Source of the DNA: Umezawaea tangerina
GTDB lineage: Bacteria > Actinomycetota > Actinomycetes > Mycobacteriales > Pseudonocardiaceae
Direction: 5' to 3'
NCBI RefSeq assembly: GCF_003002815.1
Contig: NZ_PVTF01000001.1
Location: 372,001-436,000 of the forward strand
Length of the DNA: 64,000 nt
The translations under genes were made by a program, and so were the position numbers. Below the pieces are notes generated by a model. The model was not told the origin of the DNA and made no database searches. It worked only from the letters and a program-made list of their open reading frames with translations. Position 1 is the first letter of the stretch, and every line of letters begins with the position of its first letter. Of this stretch, positions 1,848 to 17,891 are shown piece by piece.

Positions 1848-1937
1848 GGAGGCTTCGCCTAGTCTGGTCTATGGCGCCGCACTGCTAATGCGGTTTGGGT
1901 TTATCGCCCATCCCGGGTTCAAATCCCGGAGCCTCCG
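1848..1937 (+). tRNA. tRNA-Ser (anticodon GCT)
   Basis: 90-nt class II tRNA with acceptor stem GGAGGCT/AGCCTCC, anticodon loop CTGCTAA between CCGCA/TGCGG, a long variable arm and a GGGTTCAAATCCC T-arm. It reads AGC/AGT serine codons. CCA is not encoded. Confidence 0.95.
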
Positions 1938-1974
1938 CAACACCCGGCCTCGGCCGGGTGACAACTGAATACAC

Positions 1975-2047
1975 GCGCCCGTAGCTCAACGGATAGAGCA
2001 TCTGACTACGGATCAGAAGGTTAGGGGTTCGAATCCCTTCGGGCGCA
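1975..2047 (+). tRNA. tRNA-Arg (anticodon ACG)
   Basis: 73-nt tRNA with acceptor GCGCCCG/CGGGCGC, anticodon loop CTACGGA between TCTGA/TCAGA and T-loop GGTTCGAATCC. A34 is the expected target for deamination to inosine by TadA, encoded at 28670 in this window. It lies 37 nt after tRNA-Ser, so the two are probably co-transcribed. Confidence 0.95.
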
Positions 2048-2054
2048 TCTGGAG

Positions 2055-2088
2055 AGAGTCCCCGTCGAGTTCGCTCGACGGGGACTCT
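2055..2088 (+). terminator. Perfect 15-bp hairpin with TTCG loop after tRNA-Arg
   Basis: Arms 2055-2069 and 2074-2088 are exactly complementary around a TTCG tetraloop, a very stable stem only 7 nt beyond the tRNA. It is followed by GTCGTTT. Probable intrinsic terminator of the tRNA unit. Confidence 0.8.
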
Positions 2089-2110
2089 GTCGTTTGACGG
2101 CTGGAAACGA

Positions 2111-2148
2111 ATGTGGGCCCCGACGGACGTACCCGTCGGGGCCCACAT
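2111..2148. terminator. Perfect 16-bp hairpin between the tRNA unit and the kinase gene
   Basis: Arms 2111-2126 and 2133-2148 (ATGTGGGCCCCGACGG and its complement) enclose a 6-nt loop. It sits 13 nt beyond the stop of the leftward kinase gene, so it most likely terminates that operon. Confidence 0.75.
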
Positions 2149-2160
2149 CGGTTCGAGGGG

Positions 2161-4644
2161 TCAGTTGTTGGTGTTGTCCTCGACCCTGACCGCTGGCAGG
2201 AAGCTGGGGATCGTGTCGTCCAGCAAGGCCGTTCTGGGGACCTCGTGGTGTTCGGTCGGCTTGGGCAGGCGGACGGTGTCCTCCGGGTCGAGCAGAGCGC
2301 TCGCTGACGATTCGATGATCGTGTGCGTCGTCGTCTTGGTGTGGCGTCGTGCGCCCAGCGCGCCGGGGCCAACTGGCATCGAGCCCTGGTCGGTGGTGGT
2401 CACAACGGTGGCGATCCTGCTGATGGCGCGTTCCAGCCACTTGGCGGGGTGGTCGTCGCCGTCGAATTCCACTCGTCGGTTCGGGAACACCGAGATGAGG
2501 TTGTGGACCAACTGGACGACGGCCTCCGGCAGATCGGGGAGGAGTTCGTCGAGCCTGGTGCAGGAAGCGCCGTCCTGGATCTGCTTGGCGATCTCCTTCG
2601 CGCCGGATCCCTGGTCGAGGTGCTGGTACGGGGGACGGCCGGTCAGCAGGAAGTACCAGGTCGCGCCAACCGAGTAGAGGTCGGCGAGTTCCGGGTCGTG
2701 GCTGGCGCGCAGCAGGACCTCTGGTGCTGTGTACATCGGAGTGCCGCCGACCGCGCCGGTGTCCTCGGTCTGGTTGAGGAGGCGGGCGAAACCCCAGTCG
2801 ACCAGTACCAAGGTCGGCCCGTCGAGCACCGCGTTCGTCGGCTTGATGTCGCCGTGGGTGACGTTCTCGCTGTGCGCGTAAACGAGCGCTCTGGTGAGTT
2901 GCCGAATGTGGTCGATCGAGTGCTGGAGGGTGTAGCCGTCGCCACCCCGTTCGGCGGTCTTCGTGATCCAGTGCACGAGGCTGCCGGGGGAGTAGAGCGG
3001 CGAGACGGTCCAGAGGTAGCCGGACTCGACGCCCGAGGTGATGATCTGGCCGATGTTCGCGTTGTCCAGCCTCCGTGCAGCGTCGACCTCGCGCTGCCAC
3101 ATCCTCCGCAACGGGCTTCGACGCACGAGCCTGTTGTCGCCGTCCGCGTCGCGGACGGCCTTGATGACGACGCGCTCGTTGGTCTGGAGGTCGCGCCCCA
3201 TGAGCATCCGGCCGAACGCACCCCTGTCAGCGCCCTCCAACGGTTCCACCGCCCGGAAGCGCTCGTCGAACAGGTGTCCGATCAGCTCGCGGTCCTCGTC
3301 GGTCCAGTCGTCCGGGATGGGCGGCGGGTCGGCGGGGCGGTCTTGCGCACTGACTGGGGGGTTTCCGCGTTGCGAGGGCATGTCGATCGACGGCGGTTCG
3401 GTGCCCAGTCGCTCGAACTCGGCTTCCACCCACAGGCGCTGCCGTTCGGCCTCGATCTTCGTCGACGACTCGGCGCGCAACCTGGCCAAGTCGACATCGA
3501 GGCTCTGGTCGATGCGTTCGCGAGCCAGTACGCGGTCAAGAGACTCGCGGTGGCGCTGTGCGGTGTACGTGATCTCCCGCTCCCGCCGTTCGCGGCTCGC
3601 CATCACCGTCATGTCGTACCCGGTCCGACCTCGCCATATCTTGAGCAGCAGGGGGATGAGGTCCAGCAGCACGCAGAAGATGACGATCAACCAGTGCATG
3701 AACATCGCGGTGGTGTCGCGGGTGGTGAAGTCGAGCATCGCGCGCCACCGGGCGGGTACGCCGTCGCTGGCCTTGGCGGCTGCCTGGGCGGTGTCGAGGT
3801 CGGCGGTGAGCTTGCCGTCGAGCTCGGCGATGCGATCGTCCAGATTCGTGCTCTGAGCGGCCAAGGCGGTCTTGGCCTCGGTCAACTTCGCCTCCGCGGC
3901 CGCGTGCTCGCTGTCGCGCACGGCCGTTTTGTCGCCATCGCCACCGGCCCCGGTGATCTCACCCGACTGCACCAACTCCTGGCACCCGCGCGGATCGCGT
4001 TCGCACGCCGCGAGTCGACGGGTCCGGTCGGCTTCCGCCTGTGCCGCCGCGACATCCGTGTCGAGCTTGGCCCTGTCCGCTTTGAGGCCCTTGAGTTCGG
4101 CCATTCGGCCGTTCGGGTTGCCGTCGGTCCCGACAACGAGCACGCGGGAGTCGGTGACCTGCTGGGAGATGGTGTCCCGCATCGTCCGTTCGACGTCGTC
4201 GTGGAAAATGGCCAGTGCACCCGCCTCGGCGATGATGAAACCGATAAGGCACGCGCAGAGCCCGCGCACCACGTAGCTGAAAGCCCCGCGCGCTTTGCCG
4301 TTCGGGTCGGCCGGTTTCGATGCTATGGCGCGGTCGAACGCGGCGATGAACAGTCCCCACACCGCGGTGTACGGCGCCGCCGTGCCGAAGTCCGGCACCA
4401 CTCCCATACCCACCGCGGCGAGCGTGAACAGCCCCCACGCGATGACGCCGTTGAGCAGGACGAACAATCCCGACAACTGGTAGGAAGACCGGTCGTGGCG
4501 GTCGCGGACTCCGCGCCACGAGGCGCCCCCGAGCCACACGAACCCGTTGCCGAGCCACCAGATGGGCATGACGGGCCAGCGAGGTCGTGCTGTGGCGAGG
4601 ACGTCGTCGGCGTGCTGGGAATTCGGTTTGTCCACAGTGGTCAT
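2161..4644 (-). CDS. DUF4407 membrane protein fused to a Ser/Thr protein kinase
   Basis: An 827-residue fusion. Residues ~25-340 resemble DUF4407: predicted membrane segments near 57-80, 88-104, 122-145 and 313-336, with a ~165-residue Ala/Glu/Lys coiled coil (~150-305) between the last two. That topology would put the coil outside and the termini inside; Cys214 and Cys221 could form a disulfide. A second charged helical stretch (~345-410) leads to a Hanks-type kinase (~460-735). Its glycine loop is G471-G478, with Lys495 in VVIKAV, Glu519 in the C-helix, a catalytic loop HGDIKPTN (Asp599, Asn604), a DWG triplet in place of DFG (Asp616) and APE at 640-642. All catalytic residues are kept, so activity is likely. 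The C-tail (~740-827) is Thr-rich and may be phosphorylated. It lies 53 nt downstream of an FHA-protein gene in the same orientation. Function is unknown; transmembrane signalling is inference. Confidence 0.8.
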   Translation of the reverse strand: MTTVDKPNSQHADDVLATARPRWPVMPIWWLGNGFVWLGGASWRGVRDRHDRSSYQLSGLFVLLNGVIAWGLFTLAAVGMGVVPDFGTAAPYTAVWGLFIAAFDRAIASKPADPNGKARGAFSYVVRGLCACLIGFIIAEAGALAIFHDDVERTMRDTISQQVTDSRVLVVGTDGNPNGRMAELKGLKADRAKLDTDVAAAQAEADRTRRLAACERDPRGCQELVQSGEITGAGGDGDKTAVRDSEHAAAEAKLTEAKTALAAQSTNLDDRIAELDGKLTADLDTAQAAAKASDGVPARWRAMLDFTTRDTTAMFMHWLIVIFCVLLDLIPLLLKIWRGRTGYDMTVMASRERREREITYTAQRHRESLDRVLARERIDQSLDVDLARLRAESSTKIEAERQRLWVEAEFERLGTEPPSIDMPSQRGNPPVSAQDRPADPPPIPDDWTDEDRELIGHLFDERFRAVEPLEGADRGAFGRMLMGRDLQTNERVVIKAVRDADGDNRLVRRSPLRRMWQREVDAARRLDNANIGQIITSGVESGYLWTVSPLYSPGSLVHWITKTAERGGDGYTLQHSIDHIRQLTRALVYAHSENVTHGDIKPTNAVLDGPTLVLVDWGFARLLNQTEDTGAVGGTPMYTAPEVLLRASHDPELADLYSVGATWYFLLTGRPPYQHLDQGSGAKEIAKQIQDGASCTRLDELLPDLPEAVVQLVHNLISVFPNRRVEFDGDDHPAKWLERAISRIATVVTTTDQGSMPVGPGALGARRHTKTTTHTIIESSASALLDPEDTVRLPKPTEHHEVPRTALLDDTIPSFLPAVRVEDNTNN

Positions 4645-4697
4645 ACCTCGTTCGGATTACCGGGTGGTGGGTGTGGTCCGCCGTTGTCCACGACAAG

Positions 4698-5486
4698 TCA
4701 GACGCTGTCGTAGAGCTCCAATCGCAAGCGCACCGTTCGGCCGAGCCCGAGGATGTCGCCGTGGTGCAGCACACCCATTTCCGTGGTCCTTGAGTTGATG
4801 GTCATGCCGTTCGCGCTGTCCAGGTCCTCCACCGTGAAGCCGTCGGCGCGTGGACGGATGCGTGCGTGCTGCCGGGAAACAGTGGGTGCGTCCACCACGA
4901 TCTGGCACAGTTGTGCGTCTCGACCTATGACGCCTCCACCGGCAGGTAGCCGTAGGTGCGCTCCGGGTTCTGCCACCTGCACCAATCGCGCGCTGCGGCG
5001 ACTGGCCGTCGGGGGCTCCGGGGGTGCCTCGCCGTCGAAAAGACGGGTGGAGGGGACGGGTGTTCGCGCGCTGGTCGCTGTGACCCGCACCCGGCCGCGG
5101 ACGACCGTGTCGTCGTCCACGTACTCGCGTATCCGCACCCGGCGGCCGTCCACACCGGCCAGGAGCAGGTTCACCTCTCGTTCGTCTTCGATGAGGTCCT
5201 TGCCGACCAACCCCTTGTCGGCCTTGTGGAGGCCTATCGAGACGAACTCCGCTCCTCCTGACTCCGGGTGGGGCAGGCGGACCACGGCTCGGGCGATGCG
5301 GTGCAGAAGAGCTTGTCTCCGATTTTGGTATTCACCGTCCATCTCGGACACGGCGGGTTTCGCCAACTGCCTGCGCCCTTTCGCCCAAGCAGCGCGCGCG
5401 TGCTCCACGTCCCAGTTCCACCCGCGGTGTCGTGAAAGGGCGAACACAGCGGCGCAACTGGTCAGGATGATGAGCGCAGCCCACAT
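4698..5486 (-). CDS. Membrane-anchored FHA-domain protein, partner of the kinase gene
   Basis: 262 residues. An N-terminal hydrophobic segment (~2-18) is followed by a charged linker, an uncharacterised middle region (~50-150) and a C-terminal FHA domain (~175-255). The domain has the expected phosphothreonine-binding signature: GRD, then SRQHARI, then a distal SANGMTIN. FHA domains bind phosphothreonine, so the obvious partner is the kinase encoded immediately downstream, whose Thr-rich tail is a candidate ligand. This gene is first in the operon; the AT-richer upstream region holds repeated CATTCG motifs. The domain call is secure; the kinase partnership is inferred from adjacency. Confidence 0.85.
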   Translation of the reverse strand: MWAALIILTSCAAVFALSRHRGWNWDVEHARAAWAKGRRQLAKPAVSEMDGEYQNRRQALLHRIARAVVRLPHPESGGAEFVSIGLHKADKGLVGKDLIEDEREVNLLLAGVDGRRVRIREYVDDDTVVRGRVRVTATSARTPVPSTRLFDGEAPPEPPTASRRSARLVQVAEPGAHLRLPAGGGVIGRDAQLCQIVVDAPTVSRQHARIRPRADGFTVEDLDSANGMTINSRTTEMGVLHHGDILGLGRTVRLRLELYDSV

Positions 5487-5529
5487 GGCGCATCACATTC
5501 CTTCAAGGGTTGACCTGAGAAACAATCAT

Positions 5530-5743
5530 CATTCGAATCGAGGGCAGCCCAATGGGGGCGCTGTTCGCGCGTTTACCCCCAGGTTGCGGTGTCGTCTGTC
5601 GTCGTACCGCGTATCGACTGAGGGTGTCGGATTGTTTCAGTGCTGCGGATATTCATTCGAAGGTGTGATAAACGGACCGCAGGCGTCTCGAAACTGCGGT
5701 GCTCATTCGGCATGTGTTGCACGTTCGAATGAGACCGCATTCG
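5530..5743. promoter_or_regulatory. Cluster of CATTCG motifs upstream of the FHA-kinase operon
   Basis: The ~290-nt gap 5487-5776 has no gene and is visibly poorer in G+C than its surroundings. CATTCG occurs at 5530, 5654, 5704 and 5738 and in reverse (CGAATG) at 5726. The pair CTCATTCG (5702-5709)/CGAATGAG (5726-5733) forms an inverted repeat with a 16-nt spacer. This could be an operator array for the leftward operon. Confidence 0.4.
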
Positions 5744-5776
5744 TGCGGAGTTGATCCCGTGGCTGCGCGGCCGGAG

Positions 5777-6328
5777 TTACTCCGGGTCCGTTGCCTTCCT
5801 GGGTTTGTCGGGGATGGCGATGAGGGTGATGACGTGGCGGGTGCGGGGGGTGGGGGGTGTGGGTGTGCCTGCGCGGGCTAGGACTGCGGTTTCAATTTCT
5901 TCGATCATGGTGGCGAATTCCTCTTCCGTGGCCCACACGGCTGCCTGGCGGTAGACGACGCCGTCCTCGGGTGGGGTGGCGCCTGGTTGGGTCAGGTAGC
6001 GGTCGAAGTCGCCCAGCAGCGCTGTGGTGAACGTGGTGAACGACCTGCGGTGGTCCTCGGTGGTCATGGCGGCGCGGGCGGCCGGGTCGACGACGGCCTC
6101 TTCCTTGCGGATGCGGTAGCTGCGTTCGACGGTGCCGCGCACCCGCTTCTCGCCGACCACCTCGAGCACGCCCGCGTCCGTGAGCACGGCGATGTGGCGG
6201 TACATCGTCGCGGGTGGGATGTCGGGCAAGCGCTCGCGCAGCTGGGCGGTGGTGAGCGGGTCGGCGTCGAAGAGCGCCTGCAGCACGCGCATCCGGACTG
6301 GGTGGAGGAGGAGGTCCGCGGTTGCCAT
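5777..6328 (-). CDS. Winged-helix transcriptional regulator (ArsR/PadR-like)
   Basis: 183 residues. The N-terminal ~85 residues form a winged helix: an HPVRMRVLQAL start, a turn at LTTAQLRERL, recognition helix PPATMYRHIAVLTDAGVL and a wing ending in RSYRI. The remaining ~95 residues resemble the effector half of actinobacterial HTH regulators that sense small molecules, with FATMIEEIETAV as its most conserved-looking helix. It is transcribed away from the CPBP gene, and GTTCTCA motifs lie in the shared promoter region. Autoregulation and control of the CPBP gene are likely but inferred. The ligand is unknown. Confidence 0.8.
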   Translation of the reverse strand: MATADLLLHPVRMRVLQALFDADPLTTAQLRERLPDIPPATMYRHIAVLTDAGVLEVVGEKRVRGTVERSYRIRKEEAVVDPAARAAMTTEDHRRSFTTFTTALLGDFDRYLTQPGATPPEDGVVYRQAAVWATEEEFATMIEEIETAVLARAGTPTPPTPRTRHVITLIAIPDKPRKATDPE

Positions 6329-6334
6329 GCGTTC

Positions 6335-6399
6335 ATGTTCTCATATACGGTAATGTTCTCACAGATGATAAAGTTCCCATCAGTGAGAGTGATGAGAAC
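6335..6399. promoter_or_regulatory. Candidate operators (ATGTTCTCA repeats) between regulator and CPBP gene
   Basis: ATGTTCTCA occurs at 6335-6343 and again at 6353-6361, exactly 18 nt apart; the reverse form TGAGAAC is at 6393-6399. All lie in the divergent promoter region, as expected for binding sites of the adjacent winged-helix regulator. Confidence 0.5.
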
Positions 6400-6423
6400 C
6401 CGAACCCCTGGAAGGGGAGAGAA

Positions 6424-7263
6424 GTGGCCACCGTTACCCCTGCTCGTCACCGCGGCGACCTCGCGCTGTTCTGGACCACGACGTTCGCGACGACCTGGGC
6501 GTTCTGGCTCGTGGCGATCGTGCTCGGCGGGTCGCCGACCAGTTCGCCGACCGTGATCCCCTACGTGCTCGGCGGGTTCGGGCCGGTGGTGGGGGCGGTC
6601 GCGGTGCGGATCCGACGGCGGCGGCGCGGGGAGCCGGTGCCCGCGCACACCGTGAAGACCCGGCTGAACGTCTGGGTGCCGGTCCTGCTGGTCCTGGCGG
6701 TGGCGACGGTGGTGGCGGGCGCGGTGCTCGCCGACCTCCTGGGCGGGCCCGCGGTGAGCCTCACCGAAGGTGAGGAGCTGGTGGCGAAGGTGGGTGGGCC
6801 CGTGGCGTTCTTCGTCAGCATGCTGATCGGCGGCCCGCTGGCCGAGGAGCCCGGTTGGCGCGGCACGGCCTACCCGCGGCTGCGGGCGTCGATGAGCCCG
6901 TTGCGGGCGGGTCTGCTGATGGGGGTCGTCTGGGCGGTGTGGCACCTGCCGCTGTTCCTCGTCTCCGGCACGGTGCAGGCCGGGTTCGGGCTGGTCAGCT
7001 GGAGCGGGCTGCTGTTCACGCTGAGCGTGGTCCCGATGGCGCTGCTGACGGGGTACGCCTACGAGCGCGGGGGTGTCCTGGCGTCGATCGCGGTGCACCT
7101 CGGCGTGAACGCGACGATGGCGCTGCTGACCGCCTACTCCCCGGTGACGCAGGCGGTCGTCCTGGCGGTGCAGGTCGTGGCCGTCGGCGCGCTGCTCGCG
7201 GCACGGCGCGGTCGCAACGGCGACCTGCCCGCCCGCGCGCTGCCTGCACCGGTCGGGCGCTGA
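6424..7263 (+). CDS. CPBP-family intramembrane (CAAX-type) protease
   Basis: Polytopic membrane protein of about 279 residues with the CPBP/Rce1 signatures: EEPGWRG (the EExxxR motif), then WAVWHLPLF carrying a catalytic His, and a later HLGVN segment with a third metal/base residue. Family members cleave within or near the membrane or act in bacteriocin self-protection; the substrate here is unknown. A GTG start at 6424 is preferred over an upstream in-frame ATG at 6322 because GGGGAGAG lies just before it. The upstream start would also run through the putative operators and overlap the divergent gene. Confidence 0.85.
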   Translation: MATVTPARHRGDLALFWTTTFATTWAFWLVAIVLGGSPTSSPTVIPYVLGGFGPVVGAVAVRIRRRRRGEPVPAHTVKTRLNVWVPVLLVLAVATVVAGAVLADLLGGPAVSLTEGEELVAKVGGPVAFFVSMLIGGPLAEEPGWRGTAYPRLRASMSPLRAGLLMGVVWAVWHLPLFLVSGTVQAGFGLVSWSGLLFTLSVVPMALLTGYAYERGGVLASIAVHLGVNATMALLTAYSPVTQAVVLAVQVVAVGALLAARRGRNGDLPARALPAPVGR

Positions 7264-7356
7264 GCCCGATCCGTTGTGGACTCGTGCCTGCCGGGGTTGG
7301 TGGTGGGCGTGAGAACGTTGTGGTTGTCGGTGACCACGGCGGGCGGGAGGTGCGGG

Positions 7357-7818
7357 GTGGCTCTGGCGGTGACGGTCACCGGGGCACGGGCCGTGGAGCA
7401 CCTGACCGCCGAGGAGCTCGTCGAGGTCTTCGAGGCCTACGTGCTGCCGTTCGCGGTGCCCGGAGCGCACTTCTACCTGGGCGGGGCGGTGGGCGTGGAC
7501 ACCGCGGCGCTGGACTGGCTGGCCGAGGTGAGCAAGGCGGACGTGTCGGTGGTCGTGCCGAGGACCGTGCGCGACCAGCCCGACGAGGCCGCCGACGTGA
7601 TCGTGAAGTGGCGCGAGGCCGGGCGGTTGGCGGAGCTGGTGGAGCTGGACACCGACGAGGTCGGGACGGACGGCTACCTGGAGCGCAACCGGTGGATGGT
7701 GGACCGGTCGGAGCTGGTCATCGGCTTCCCGCGCAGCGGCGACCAGGGCAGCGGGACCGGGTACACGCTCGGGTACGCGGCGTCCAAGGGCAAGGCGCTG
7801 CTGGTCGTGCCGATCTGA
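7357..7818 (+). CDS. SLOG/DprA-like Rossmann-fold protein of unknown function
   Basis: 153 residues from the GTG at 7357, which has GGGAGG just upstream; an earlier in-frame ATG at 7276 would add a poorly matching leader. The pattern matches SLOG (SMF/DprA-LOG) proteins: an initial strand ending in TGAR, the loop YLGGAVGVDTAALDWLAE, then ERNRWMVDRSELVIGFP and a GTGYTLGYAASKGKALLVV ending. Such folds bind nucleotides or nucleic acids and recur in DNA uptake, cytokinin activation and defence systems. Nothing nearby identifies the ligand. Confidence 0.65.
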   Translation: MALAVTVTGARAVEHLTAEELVEVFEAYVLPFAVPGAHFYLGGAVGVDTAALDWLAEVSKADVSVVVPRTVRDQPDEAADVIVKWREAGRLAELVELDTDEVGTDGYLERNRWMVDRSELVIGFPRSGDQGSGTGYTLGYAASKGKALLVVPI

Positions 7819-7885
7819 GCGGCACCGTCGGCTGAGCGGGTGTTATTCCGCCGCAAGACGGGCGCGGGGTGGGATCGTTCGGTTC

Positions 7886-8221
7886 ATGCGCAACGAGGAG
7901 ATCATGCAGCGGGCCATCGGCGTGCTGACGCTGATGCACGGCGGCGAGGGTGAGGCGGACGACCTGCGCCTCGCGCTGAAGCTCCTCCAGGAGGACGTGT
8001 TCAGCTACTCGGTGGCGGTCCCGGACGGCAGTACGGAGGACATGGCCGAGTTCGTCCGGGTGGCGCTGGAGCAGGTGATGGCGCGGGTGGCGGCGTTCAC
8101 CGCGGGGCTGACGCTGGGGTTCCAGGCGGTCGCGCACGCCTACGAGGAGCAGTGCGAGGACGCGAACGTGCCGGGTGTGCTGCAACAGCTGGCGTTGCGG
8201 CTGGAGGCGCAGGAGAGCTGA
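7886..8221 (+). CDS. Small helical hypothetical protein
   Basis: 111 residues, acidic and mostly helical by composition, with no recognised motif. The start at 7886 (MRNEEIMQRA) has no strong ribosome-binding site; a second in-frame ATG lies at 7904. It is followed after one base by a perfect hairpin, consistent with a real transcription unit. Function unknown. Confidence 0.55.
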   Translation: MRNEEIMQRAIGVLTLMHGGEGEADDLRLALKLLQEDVFSYSVAVPDGSTEDMAEFVRVALEQVMARVAAFTAGLTLGFQAVAHAYEEQCEDANVPGVLQQLALRLEAQES

Positions 8222-8249
8222 GGAACGGCCTGCCGGGGCAGGCCGTTCC
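8222..8249. terminator. Bidirectional hairpin between convergent genes
   Basis: Perfect 13-bp stem, 8222-8234 with 8237-8249, immediately after one stop codon and 8 nt from the stop of the convergent SGNH gene. Confidence 0.7.
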
Positions 8250-8257
8250 CCGTGCGG

Positions 8258-9157
8258 TCAGCGCAGCTCGCACTCCACGAGCGCGGCGAAGGCCGCCTGG
8301 CCCGCCCTGCTGGGGTGCAGGACCGCGACGACGCCTTCCTGGCCGGGCGTGAAGACGGCCTCGAGGCCGCGGTAGAACGGGGTGTCCGCCTGGCACATCG
8401 AGTGGCCCTCGAGCTCGGTCCGCAGGGTGCCGCCGTCGGTGAACGCGCTGGCGTACGCCGCGTTCACGCCCTGGGCACGGGCGTCGCTGGTCGCGGTGCG
8501 CAGCGCTTGGTCGACGCTCGTGGCGACCGTCGCACCGTCGGTCCGCTCCTGCGGGGTGAGGATGCCGTCGCCGCAGATCGGGTCGAGCGCCACGCCGGTG
8601 GCGTTCTCACCGGGGTTGAACTGGCGGCCGTAGCCGCTGAGCACGATCCGCGCCCGCGGGCTGCGGGCCTTGATCTCGCCGAGCAGCGCCGTGAGCTTGG
8701 CCGTCATGGCCGGCAGCCGGTCGAGCAGGGCCTGCGTACCGGCTCCCGCGCAGTCCGACTGGATGCACTGGCCCGCGTAGGCGGCGAACTCGATGTCGTT
8801 CCCGCCCATCGTCATCAGGACCAGGTTCGTGTCCGCCTTGAGGGCGTCCAGCTGCGGCGGTTCTTCCTTGAAAGTGGTGCTCAGATCGGCGATCGCCGCA
8901 CCGCTGCACGTCACGTTGGTGAAGTCGACCTGCTTGCCGCGAGCCCGCAGACCGGCCACCACGACGGCCGATCCCGAATTGGCGCTGCGGTAGCAGTTCC
9001 CGTCGGTCCCCGCCTCGTAGTCACCCGCTCCGACACCCGACGCGTACGAGTCGCCGAGTGCCACGACCTGCAGCGGACGGTGCGAACCAGCCTGGGCCGC
9101 CGGTACCACGACCAGCGAAAGAACGCCCGCGAGCACCGCTGTGCAGAGTTTCCTCAT
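8258..9157 (-). CDS. Secreted SGNH/GDSL-family esterase or lipase
   Basis: 299 residues with a Sec signal peptide (MRKLCTAVLAGVLSLVVV... ending near AQAG). SGNH block I is GDSYASG (nucleophile Ser), block III is GGND, and block V is the C-terminal HPSRAGQ with the catalytic His. Six cysteines are spaced as three disulfides, as in the Streptomyces coelicolor secreted SGNH lipases. It should hydrolyse esters outside the cell; the exact substrate cannot be read from sequence. It is convergent with the preceding small gene. Confidence 0.87.
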   Translation of the reverse strand: MRKLCTAVLAGVLSLVVVPAAQAGSHRPLQVVALGDSYASGVGAGDYEAGTDGNCYRSANSGSAVVVAGLRARGKQVDFTNVTCSGAAIADLSTTFKEEPPQLDALKADTNLVLMTMGGNDIEFAAYAGQCIQSDCAGAGTQALLDRLPAMTAKLTALLGEIKARSPRARIVLSGYGRQFNPGENATGVALDPICGDGILTPQERTDGATVATSVDQALRTATSDARAQGVNAAYASAFTDGGTLRTELEGHSMCQADTPFYRGLEAVFTPGQEGVVAVLHPSRAGQAAFAALVECELR

Positions 9158-9252
9158 CTTGCCCCCATCCGATTAACGCCGAATGCGTCGGAAGTTAGCA
9201 CGATGGGAATTGACAATCGGTTGCACGAATGGCCAAATGAGATAAGGGCTTG

Positions 9253-10068
9253 TCAGGCCGACAGTTCGGCGAGAATCGAATCGGTGAACGCGGGCCACGT
9301 CTGGACCGCCCATTTCCCGAATGCCCGGTCCGCCAGTGCCACGCACGCCGCTCCCGCGACCGGGTCGACCCACAGGAAGGTGCCGCTCTGCCCGAAGTGG
9401 CCGAACGTCGACGGCGAGCTCGACGCCCCCGTCCAATGCGGCGACTTGTCGCCGCGGATCTCGAACCCGAGCCCCCAGTCGTTCTCGCGCTGGTTGCCGT
9501 AACCGGGCAGGACACCGGACAGGCCGGGGAACACCACCGCCGTCGCCTCGGCGACCAGCCCCTCCGACACGAGCTTCGGCGCCTGCAGCTCGGCGGCGAA
9601 CAGGCCGAGGTCGGTCACCGTCGACACCGCGCCCGCCGCGGGGCTGCCGTCCAGCGCCGTGGCCGTCATCCCGAGCGGCTGGAGCACGCCCTCCGCCAGG
9701 TAGTCGGCGAACGCGATCCCGGTCGCCTCGGCCACGGTCTCGGCCAGCACCTCGAAGCCGGTGTTGGAGTAGATCCGCCTGCTGCCCGGCGTCGCCTGGG
9801 CGGTGCGGCTGTCGAACGCGAGTCCGGAGGCGTGGGCGATGAGATGCCGCACGGTGGACCCCTCGGGCCCGGCGGGCTGGTCCCACTCGACCGCGCCCTC
9901 CTCCACGGCGACCAGCACGGCGTACGCCACCAGCGGTTTCGTCACCGACGCCAGGGCGAACGGCCGGTCCACCTCGCCGTGGCCGCCCAGCACCCGCCCG
10001 TCGGCGGAGACGACCGCGGCCGCCGCGTTGTCGACCGGCCACTCGGACACCGCGCGCAGGCTCTCCAT
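9253..10068 (-). CDS. Serine hydrolase of the class C beta-lactamase fold
   Basis: 271 residues without a signal peptide. It has SVTK (SxxK nucleophile motif) near residue 40, YSNTGF (YxN motif) and a C-terminal HFGQSG, matching the beta-lactamase/esterase EstB-like family rather than true AmpC enzymes. A cytosolic esterase, amidase or peptidase role is likely; beta-lactam resistance should not be assumed. It is divergent from the RNase Z gene, with only 23 nt between start codons. Confidence 0.8.
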   Translation of the reverse strand: MESLRAVSEWPVDNAAAAVVSADGRVLGGHGEVDRPFALASVTKPLVAYAVLVAVEEGAVEWDQPAGPEGSTVRHLIAHASGLAFDSRTAQATPGSRRIYSNTGFEVLAETVAEATGIAFADYLAEGVLQPLGMTATALDGSPAAGAVSTVTDLGLFAAELQAPKLVSEGLVAEATAVVFPGLSGVLPGYGNQRENDWGLGFEIRGDKSPHWTGASSSPSTFGHFGQSGTFLWVDPVAGAACVALADRAFGKWAVQTWPAFTDSILAELSA

Positions 10069-15917: not shown

Positions 15918-16649
15918 TCACCGGGTCAGGTGACGAGCCGACCCTGTTCCGGTGAAGAGTGCGACCTGCCGTTGCCGGGTGGTGCCGTCCTGTGTGGAAT
16001 TGCCCGCACCAGGGCCGCGCGACGGGAGTCCCGCCGTGCGGGCCGGTGCACCCGTCGGTCCGGTCGTGACGCACCAAAGGTGAGGCCCGGTGCGCGACCG
16101 GTGGACAGCACCGTGGTGGTGAGGCCCCGTTCTTCGTTCGGGTGGTGGGCCGCCGGTTCGACCTCGGCGGACGCCAGCGGAACGGTCACGCCCGCCACCC
16201 ACGAGCTCGCTGCGGCGGTGCGGGCGGGCGGTGGATCACGCGGATCCGCCGCCCGTGCGCCGATCCCGAGGATCACCGTTCGGTAACAGTGTGACCACAG
16301 ATCGGTCAGTCCTTAACCGTTGAATCCTCAATAACAGCGTTCGACCTGGGGAAACGTCGGAATGGACCACGCGGTCTGTCTGGCAACATGGACGGGTTCA
16401 GCACCGTGGACGAGATCATCCGGTGCCATTTGATCGTCCACTGTGGACGTTTTACTCGCGTTGTAGCTGTTCGTAGCTGTCGACGCACGACGTGTAACCC
16501 GAACTCGATCGGGGGTAACCCGATCGGATAGTGTTCCGCCGATTCCTGTCGGATCCGCGTGAATAGGGGGTCCTGCGCCCCTGCTGGACGACAGATCCCA
16601 CTTCTTTTCTCACCCGATTCGGGCTAGTTAGAGAGCTTGAAGGAGATCC
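15918..16649. other. 732-base gene-free stretch before the surface-protein gene
   Basis: The first ~370 bases are GC-rich with open frames on both strands, but these have no good ribosome-binding site, no motifs and shadow each other; I see no supportable gene. From about 16287 the sequence becomes clearly more AT-rich and probably holds the promoter of the surface-protein gene, including a palindrome at 16506-16526. Confidence 0.5.
16506..16526. promoter_or_regulatory. 21-bp palindrome upstream of the surface-protein gene
   Basis: CGATCGGG (16506-16513) and CCCGATCG (16519-16526) flank GGTAA. It lies 124 nt before the start codon and could be an operator or a leader hairpin. Confidence 0.4.
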
Positions 16650-17891
16650 ATGGCATCCCGGTTGAGCGCGTCGCGCGTTGGTGCGGCAGTCCTCGGCGCC
16701 TCCATCGCCCTGCTGGCTTCGGCCATCCCGGCTTCGGCTGAGGTCCACGTCAAGCCCAAGGGCGAATGGGACCAGGAGGGCATCGGCGTTTTCCTGGAGG
16801 GCAACGGGAACTCGCTGACCACGAGCCTCATCGGCCTCCAGATCGACAACACCGACACCAAGGTCCAGTCCTACTGCGTCGAGCTCCCGACCCCCCTCAA
16901 GGGCGGTCACGGGCTCAAGGAGGTCGCGTGGGACAAGCACCCCAACCCGAAGACGAAGTTCAAGGAGAACGCCGCCAAGGTCAGCTGGATCCTGCAGAAC
17001 AGCTTCCCCCTGGTGAAGGCGGAGGACCTCGGGAAGGTCGACGCCCTCAAGGGCCACGACATCAGCGAGAAGGAAGCCATCGCGGCCACCCAGGCGGCGA
17101 TCTGGCACTTCAGCGATGACGCCAAGCTCGACAAGGGCAAGGTCGTCAAGTCCGACGACAAGGACACCAAGGGCGACGTCCTCGCCGTCTACGAGTACCT
17201 GACCGGCGACGCCAACAAGGGCAACGTCGAGCAGCCGACCCCGACGCTGGCGCTCGACCCGGCCGACAAGACCGGTGCCCCCGGCGACCTGATCGGCCCG
17301 TTCACCATCACGACCACCGCGGGTGAGGTCGTCCTCAAGGCCGACCTGCCGCAGGGCGTCACGCTGGCGGACAAGGACGGCAACACGCTGTCCGACCCGC
17401 AGGGCGGCACCTTCGCCGTCAAGGACGCGGGCACCAAGACCAAGGAGTTCTGGGTCAAGGTCCCGGCCGACGCCGCCGACGGCAAGGCCTCCTTCTCCGT
17501 CGAGGCGAACGCCACCCTCACCCAGGGCCGCCTGTTCGTCAGCAGCAACGACCAGCTGCAGACGCAGTCCCTGATCGTGGCCTCCCCGTCGAAGGTCAGC
17601 CTCAAGGCTCCGGGCACCGCGTCCTGGAAGGCGGGCGAGGTGACCCCGCCGTCCAGCACGTCGGAGTCGGCCCCGCCGACCTCCACCACGGAGACCGCGC
17701 CGCCGTCGGAGACGCCGCCCACCACGACCACCCAGCCCGTCCCGGCCGGTGGCAGCAGCGGTGAGACCGGTGGTCTCGCCAGCACCGGTGCGTCGATCTT
17801 CGTGCCGCTCGTCATCGGCATCGTGCTCGTCGGCGGTGGCGCCGGCGCGCTGCTGGTGATGCGCCGTCGCAAGTCGACCCCGCAGCAGTAG
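16650..17891 (+). CDS. Thioester-forming LAXTG cell-wall surface protein
   Basis: 413 residues. A Sec signal (residues 1-~30, ending ASAEV) precedes a thioester (TQXA) domain: the Cys in SYCVE and the Gln in TQAAIWHFSD can form an internal Cys-Gln thioester, a feature of surface adhesins that bind host or matrix amines. A second beta-rich domain (~190-310) and a Pro/Thr/Ser stalk (~330-375) follow. The C-terminal sorting signal is LASTG, a hydrophobic stretch and MRRRK. LAxTG is the motif used by actinobacterial class E sortases, so the protein should be covalently anchored to peptidoglycan. The ATG is preceded by AAGGAG. No sortase gene lies in the window. Confidence 0.88.
   Translation: MASRLSASRVGAAVLGASIALLASAIPASAEVHVKPKGEWDQEGIGVFLEGNGNSLTTSLIGLQIDNTDTKVQSYCVELPTPLKGGHGLKEVAWDKHPNPKTKFKENAAKVSWILQNSFPLVKAEDLGKVDALKGHDISEKEAIAATQAAIWHFSDDAKLDKGKVVKSDDKDTKGDVLAVYEYLTGDANKGNVEQPTPTLALDPADKTGAPGDLIGPFTITTTAGEVVLKADLPQGVTLADKDGNTLSDPQGGTFAVKDAGTKTKEFWVKVPADAADGKASFSVEANATLTQGRLFVSSNDQLQTQSLIVASPSKVSLKAPGTASWKAGEVTPPSSTSESAPPTSTTETAPPSETPPTTTTQPVPAGGSSGETGGLASTGASIFVPLVIGIVLVGGGAGALLVMRRRKSTPQQ

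Follow-up and report, generated by a model that had tools for sequence, protein, structure and literature searches.

A DUF4407-kinase fusion and an FHA protein form a candidate writer-reader cassette at a variable tRNA-Arg site in Umezawaea tangerina

The window analysed here, 64,000 nucleotides of Umezawaea tangerina whose positions are used throughout, carries beside two tRNA genes a pair of (-) strand genes that encode an FHA protein with a predicted membrane anchor and a protein in which a DUF4407 membrane domain is joined to a Hanks-type kinase. The FHA open reading frame (ORF; 4698..5486, 262 residues) comes first in transcription, and the fusion ORF (2161..4644, 827 residues) follows on the same strand after a gap of 53 bp, the arrangement described in a first-pass annotation made from the sequence without database searches. 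That annotation had placed the end of the feature at 5743, which includes ~260 bp upstream of the FHA ORF start at 5486. Pfam confirms that both fused domains lie in one chain. DUF4407 (PF14362) matches residues 49-348 (3601..4500, (-); E 6.2e-55, 187 bits against a curated cut-off of 31.3), and Pkinase matches residues 474-726 (2467..3225, (-); E 2.8e-33, 116 bits). The catalytic Lys, HxD Asp, Asn and DxG Asp are all kept, as first noted (K495, D599, N604 and D616), and E519 is present too, so that by its sequence the domain is predicted to be a Hanks-type kinase with its catalytic residues. It reads HGD (597-599) for HRD and DWG (616-618) for DFG; these substitutions had been singled out as an oddity, and DWG or DWA occurs in 7/10 fused kinases of the survey described below. 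The FHA domain occupies residues 186-249 (4740..4931, (-); E 6.2e-16, 59 bits) and contains the GR, SRxH and NG motifs of a phosphothreonine pocket, which predicts a reader role, and hydropathy predicts an N-terminal transmembrane (TM) segment at residues 1-19. A possible FhaA-like domain in the middle of this protein found support in neither Pfam nor the PDB.

The DUF4407 domain has four predicted TM segments, near residues 60-78, 87-103 (weak), 129-147 and 318-336. Loop charges predict that the coil of ~165 residues between TM3 and TM4 (149-312) lies outside and the kinase inside, in agreement with the first-pass topology, and no credible relative of DUF4407 was found in the PDB by sequence. 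The coil contains the Cys pair C214/C221 (3982..4005, (-)), which had been read as a sensor of envelope state. That reading loses ground because at least two coil Cys occur in 41/43 DUF4407 proteins tested, and two in each of the 10 fusions; the pair is likelier a fixed structural clasp and a general DUF4407 trait. The C-terminal tail (residues 755-827; 2164..2382, (-)) is Thr-rich as claimed (13.7% against 7.4% in the whole fusion protein) and bears two LLD..DT motifs; actinobacterial kinases favour acidic residues ahead of Thr. The pattern LL[DE]x(0-2)[DEG]T occurs twice in the tails of both the window and the G685 proteins and is absent from those of G142 and G724; over 20,000 shuffles of these four tails the mean was 0.024 motifs and four were never reached, for a motif picked after the tails had been viewed. 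The suggestion that the FHA domain reads the tail is thus conjectural, with only two of the four class A tails bearing the motif. We also note a short PVG motif after the kinase domain in fusions of classes A and C (2359-2382 in the window; L009, L115, L114, L180 and L182), as SMPVGPGA in the window and NLPVG in class C.

The pair lies in an insert that some genomes have and others lack, at a tRNA-Arg site of variable content. The two tRNA genes noticed in the first pass are tRNA-Ser(gct) (1848..1938, (+)) and tRNA-Arg(acg) (1975..2047, (+)), the latter forming the left border of the site. Two strong hairpins, probably terminators, fold in the gap that separates the tRNA gene from the stop codon of the kinase gene (2052..2150; -35.2 and -37.6 kcal/mol, with 0/200 shuffles as good for either). 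Congener G022 lacks the insert (2058..5780), with 105 bp in its place, and aligns to the window on both sides (1501-2057 at 92% and 5781-9700 at 87% identity), and neither G022 nor congener G060 matches the fusion at E 1e-30. On the right lies an HTH_20 regulator gene (5777..6328, (-)), which has a counterpart in G022 even though the pair is lacking there. Among 25 genomes of genus g22, only G142 has the fusion. The FHA and fusion genes stand there in the arrangement seen in the window, following the equivalent tRNA-Ser(gct)/tRNA-Arg(acg) pair, with 54% and 49% identity to the window pair. In G546, whose flanking sequence is 97-98% identical to that of G142, ~5 kb is lacking at the insert site. 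The G142 insert has an extra gene between tRNA and kinase, which encodes a secreted-looking protein of 133 residues with no Pfam match (L081:1259-1660(+)).

The same site varies widely in relatives. It was examined in 18 genomes (the window genome plus 17 relatives) of 24 searched, and the distance from tRNA-Arg to the right-hand conserved gene ranges from ~2 kb to ~31 kb. The FHA-fusion pair occupies the site in 2/18 (the window genome and G142); a phage-type integrase gene lies beside the same tRNA-Arg in at least four genomes (G555, G109, G126 and G541, the only four candidates scanned); and in G548 (L075/L076) and G088 (L077/L078) the site holds a Crp-like/STAND-like/DUF4407 operon instead. 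A second tRNA context is seen in G685, where tRNA-Ala lies 679 bp before the FHA gene; a tRNA scan found no tRNA gene in the other seven fusion loci that it covered. The first-pass annotation did not recognize this insert, and it had pointed to low GC content. The four 1-kb bins of 2001-6000 do have GC contents of 0.64-0.68, and 47/64 window bins reach 0.70 or more, but the dip alone says little because other bins fall as far (for example, 0.647 at 16001-17000).

Fusions of DUF4407 to a kinase are patchy and recurrent. Pfam searches covered 390 family, 396 phylum and 388 class genomes, in partly overlapping sets, and PF14362 scored above its cut-off in 70, 13 and 74 of them, respectively. All above-cut-off DUF4407 frames of more than 700 residues from the family and class searches were fetched and scanned; shorter frames were fetched in part, so a short fusion could be missed, and long frames under the cut-off were not fetched. 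Ten fusions were found, with both domains confirmed by Pfam in 10/10 (the G399 kinase by PK_Tyr_Ser-Thr only). They comprise class A (window, G142, G685 and G724), class B (G594 and G118), class C (G311 and G487), class D (G416) and class E (G399), and six, including that of the window, belong to the 390 family genomes. Protein searches, which scored few candidates per genome and were outperformed by the Pfam model, returned one other fusion and three unfused kin from 150 family genomes at E 1e-30, and five unfused relatives from 394 class genomes. A single-protein scan of 84,980 genomes, which reaches close kin only, returned five loci, each matching through its kinase domain alone. The DUF4407 part matches 3/72,556 plasmid records, and no plasmid record covers 80% of the fusion. 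G140:C77 resembled a fusion by its length, and its DUF4407 protein has no kinase match.

The FHA partner recurs with the fusion. Counting FHA neighbours across DUF4407-kinase fusions was the check proposed in the first pass, and its outcome sides with the proposal: the DUF4407 domain is matched, and a same-strand FHA gene lies within 3 kb of 8/10 fusions compared with 0/59 unfused DUF4407 ORFs (Fisher P = 5e-9, uncorrected for descent). The 59 are a non-random sample, since priority in fetching went to long frames and high scores. Pfam confirms FHA beside the fusions of the window, G142, G685, G724, G594, G118, G416 and G399; the FHA profile used was built from seven sequences of six fusion loci, and it also recovered the non-seed loci G416 and G399. 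In sequence, then, the fusion-FHA combination is found again elsewhere. The FHA gene overlaps the fusion gene in G724, G416 and G594 and lies 1.4 kb from it in G399. PP2C is near 4/10 fusions, those of classes B and C. The downstream partner in G594 and G118 is a single FHA-PP2C chain with a predicted N-terminal TM segment, accompanied by an extra FHA gene upstream. In classes A, D and E the search within 3 kb turned up no phosphatase, with a PP2C profile that missed one class C PP2C (G311), which Pfam detected. That FHA and fusion genes are chance neighbours without shared function is very improbable, although the combination has only a handful of independent origins. Genomes encode 5 to 18 FHA genes (5 in the window genome), and random placement would put one near ~0.06 of ten fusion loci, against the eight found; the gene overlaps and the order kept in the diverged G142 pair likewise argue against coincidence.

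Phylogenies of the two domains differ in what they suggest about the origin of the fusion. In the DUF4407 tree a single clade of fusions is rejected (approximately unbiased (AU) test, P = 1.8e-5) and the fusions need five changes, so the kinase was joined, or the join lost, on more than one occasion. The window copy is closer to that of G685 (support 99/90) than to that of G142, which shares its site; this placement fits repeated arrival at one site, a reading made from the DUF4407 tree with no species tree compared. Unfused genes of the vWA type and of the STAND-like type each form one clade (96/89 and 100/98, respectively).

Unfused DUF4407 genes, whose operon types had been missed in the first pass, keep other company. 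Neighbours of the 59 ORFs include vWA (19 ORFs), PP2C (19), a kinase-like gene (25) and a Hanks-type kinase (8). The window genome itself encodes a second DUF4407 gene in such a set (L030, G000:C17, 5131-10432), with PP2C (1e-21), vWA (2e-11) and two kinase-like genes that match kinase models weakly, as do the kinase-like genes tested at unfused vWA/PP2C loci. Nine of the 59 lie near a weakly STAND-like gene of ~660-730 residues, partly with a Crp/cNMP-binding gene, and nSTAND3 scored below its cut-off in the two STAND-like genes scanned. A 237-residue gene of the STAND-like operon that looked cyclase-like by eye has no match in Pfam (one relative scanned) or NCBIfam (three). In four loci (L142, L128, L133 and L136) DUF4407 genes adjoin very large genes on the opposite strand; that of L142, the only one scanned, has TPR repeats and scores 293 bits with the FxSxx-COOH TPR model, compared with a cut-off of 300. 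At L118:5836-10536 a DUF4407 gene lies by a sub-cut-off double-GTPase match and an 809-residue protein, whose assignment as GAP1 by eye was confirmed by neither Pfam nor NCBIfam.

These operons raise the possibility, which we hold tentatively, that DUF4407 serves as a common membrane component for an entire class of mobile conflict systems in actinobacteria, in which one coil reads, or executes, envelope attack. Its interchangeable signalling parts would be the fused kinase with FHA/PP2C, the vWA-PP2C-kinase set and the STAND-like set with Crp. A further reading, to which we give rather less weight, makes DUF4407 the output, a membrane effector (a pore or growth-arrest protein) that would be gated by the fused kinase and FHA in the manner of the KKP toxin-antitoxin set. 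It draws on the constancy of DUF4407 across several different signalling operons and on the precedent of KKP, whose kinase is toxic when its phosphatase is blocked; a restraint on such an effector lacks a candidate in classes A, D and E, within the reach of the PP2C profile.

Several known systems resemble the locus in part. In the available text of PMC11341870, KKP is a prophage-borne set that comprises a PP2C and two kinases, of which the first bears a cold-shock domain and the other an FHA domain. It is like the fusions in uniting Ser/Thr kinases, FHA and PP2C in one mobile set, as class B and C fusions adjoin PP2C. KKP differs in its order of PP2C then two kinases, where the window locus has one kinase and no PP2C found, and the available text mentions no DUF4407 part. 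The TerY-P triad of vWA, PP2C and Ser/Thr kinase has stand-alone anti-phage versions (PMC11090510, in the text available) and likewise places a kinase/phosphatase set in conflict contexts, much as unfused DUF4407 genes adjoin vWA, PP2C and kinase-like genes. The window locus differs from it in that no vWA or PP2C was found within 3 kb, an FHA gene is present instead and the kinase is fused to DUF4407. GAP1-N2 conflict systems are actinobacterial, follow a kinase-PP2C-vWA theme and sometimes fuse the kinase to TM helices (PMC7159879, in the text available), features that recall the DUF4407 sets with their adjacent PP2C and vWA. The difference is that neither ORF of the window pair has a GTPase match in Pfam, and the available text on the theme names no DUF4407 or FHA partner. 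Open-access literature, in the portions available, names DUF4407 in three papers, as table entries without function, and PF14362 in one, and a search of it, with most subscription papers outside its range, yielded no description of a set combining DUF4407, kinase and FHA, in keeping with the first-pass view that none had been described.

The pair might alternatively be an accessory envelope-housekeeping kinase in this family, which like mycobacterial PknB with FhaA/MviN would sense wall state and tune wall synthesis. The likeness is that of a transmembrane kinase with an FHA reader in actinobacteria, and reportedly PknB, FhaA and MviN provide a mycobacterial precedent for a kinase working with an FHA partner. 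By profile, the closest solved FHA domains are also mycobacterial, those of Rv1747 and TB39.8, the latter of which we take to be FhaA. However, the fusion has no PASTA match in Pfam and carries the DUF4407 coil on its predicted outer face, and the FHA protein scores 42.2 bits with the FhaB/FipA equivalog model against a cut-off of 125. The fusion is also patchy (one other in 150 family genomes by protein search, and the six in 390 by Pfam) and comes and goes at a variable site between flanks that are 97-98% identical. We therefore regard housekeeping as unlikely.

Our preferred reading, which we think probable, is that the locus is a horizontally moving two-gene cassette for phospho-signalling, a writer and a reader built on the DUF4407 membrane module. 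The DUF4407 coil would extend past the membrane and form a helical hairpin that the Cys pair closes, and a change felt at the coil, or an altered oligomeric state, would switch on the cytoplasmic kinase. The kinase may then phosphorylate Thr residues of its own tail or juxtamembrane coil, plus other targets, and the FHA protein would dock on those phosphothreonines at the membrane, where it would hold or relay the signal. In relatives, a PP2C phosphatase is joined to the reader or takes its place, and this enzyme would reset the switch. A more speculative proposal concerns purpose, which may be defence against phage or rivals at the envelope and not routine wall growth. It gains likelihood because DUF4407 genes also occur in conflict-type operons (vWA/PP2C/kinase-like, and STAND-like with Crp) and at variable sites; the mobile placement and the gene neighbours speak for a part in conflict more than for one in wall upkeep. 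Anatomy and recurrence back the predicted writer-reader arrangement well, as they do not the purpose.

A number of results weigh against this reading. The fusion kinase lacks the canonical HRD and DFG motifs, which are present in all 8 other kinases of the genome caught by the motif pattern. Two of the ten fusions (G487 and G311) have PP2C and no FHA gene that was found, another ORF may sit between FHA and fusion in G685 and G399, and correction for descent leaves four independent pairs, of which three are for the association, none against and one undecided (sign test, P = 0.25). As to mobility, no direct or attachment (att) repeats were found at the insert ends, and the insert contains no integrase; its two genes leave free stretches of at most ~300 bp and hence no room for one. 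The integrase and att repeats of an integrative element are thus both missing from it. No match was found in 50,697 phage records, nor in viral contigs by pattern search. Of 34 PADLOC-DB matches, the 25 listed all lie within the kinase portion of the fusion protein, and the FHA protein drew none; among those listed, nothing beyond the shared kinase domain links the pair to a known anti-phage system. Finally, a split in the kinase tree of 26 rows sets the ten fused kinases apart from the others (support 96), a grouping that fits poorly with numerous independent joins, in a tree with few rows and two long branches. The first-pass interpretation as a whole is upheld in part.

The recurrent kinase fusions with FHA or PP2C give a concrete handle on the role of DUF4407, a domain with no function assigned in Pfam. 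They also make the system testable, with writer, reader and eraser named and with near-identical genomes that carry (G142) and lack (G546) the insert. If the conflict reading is true, the cassette would add a membrane phospho-signalling type to bacterial immunity.

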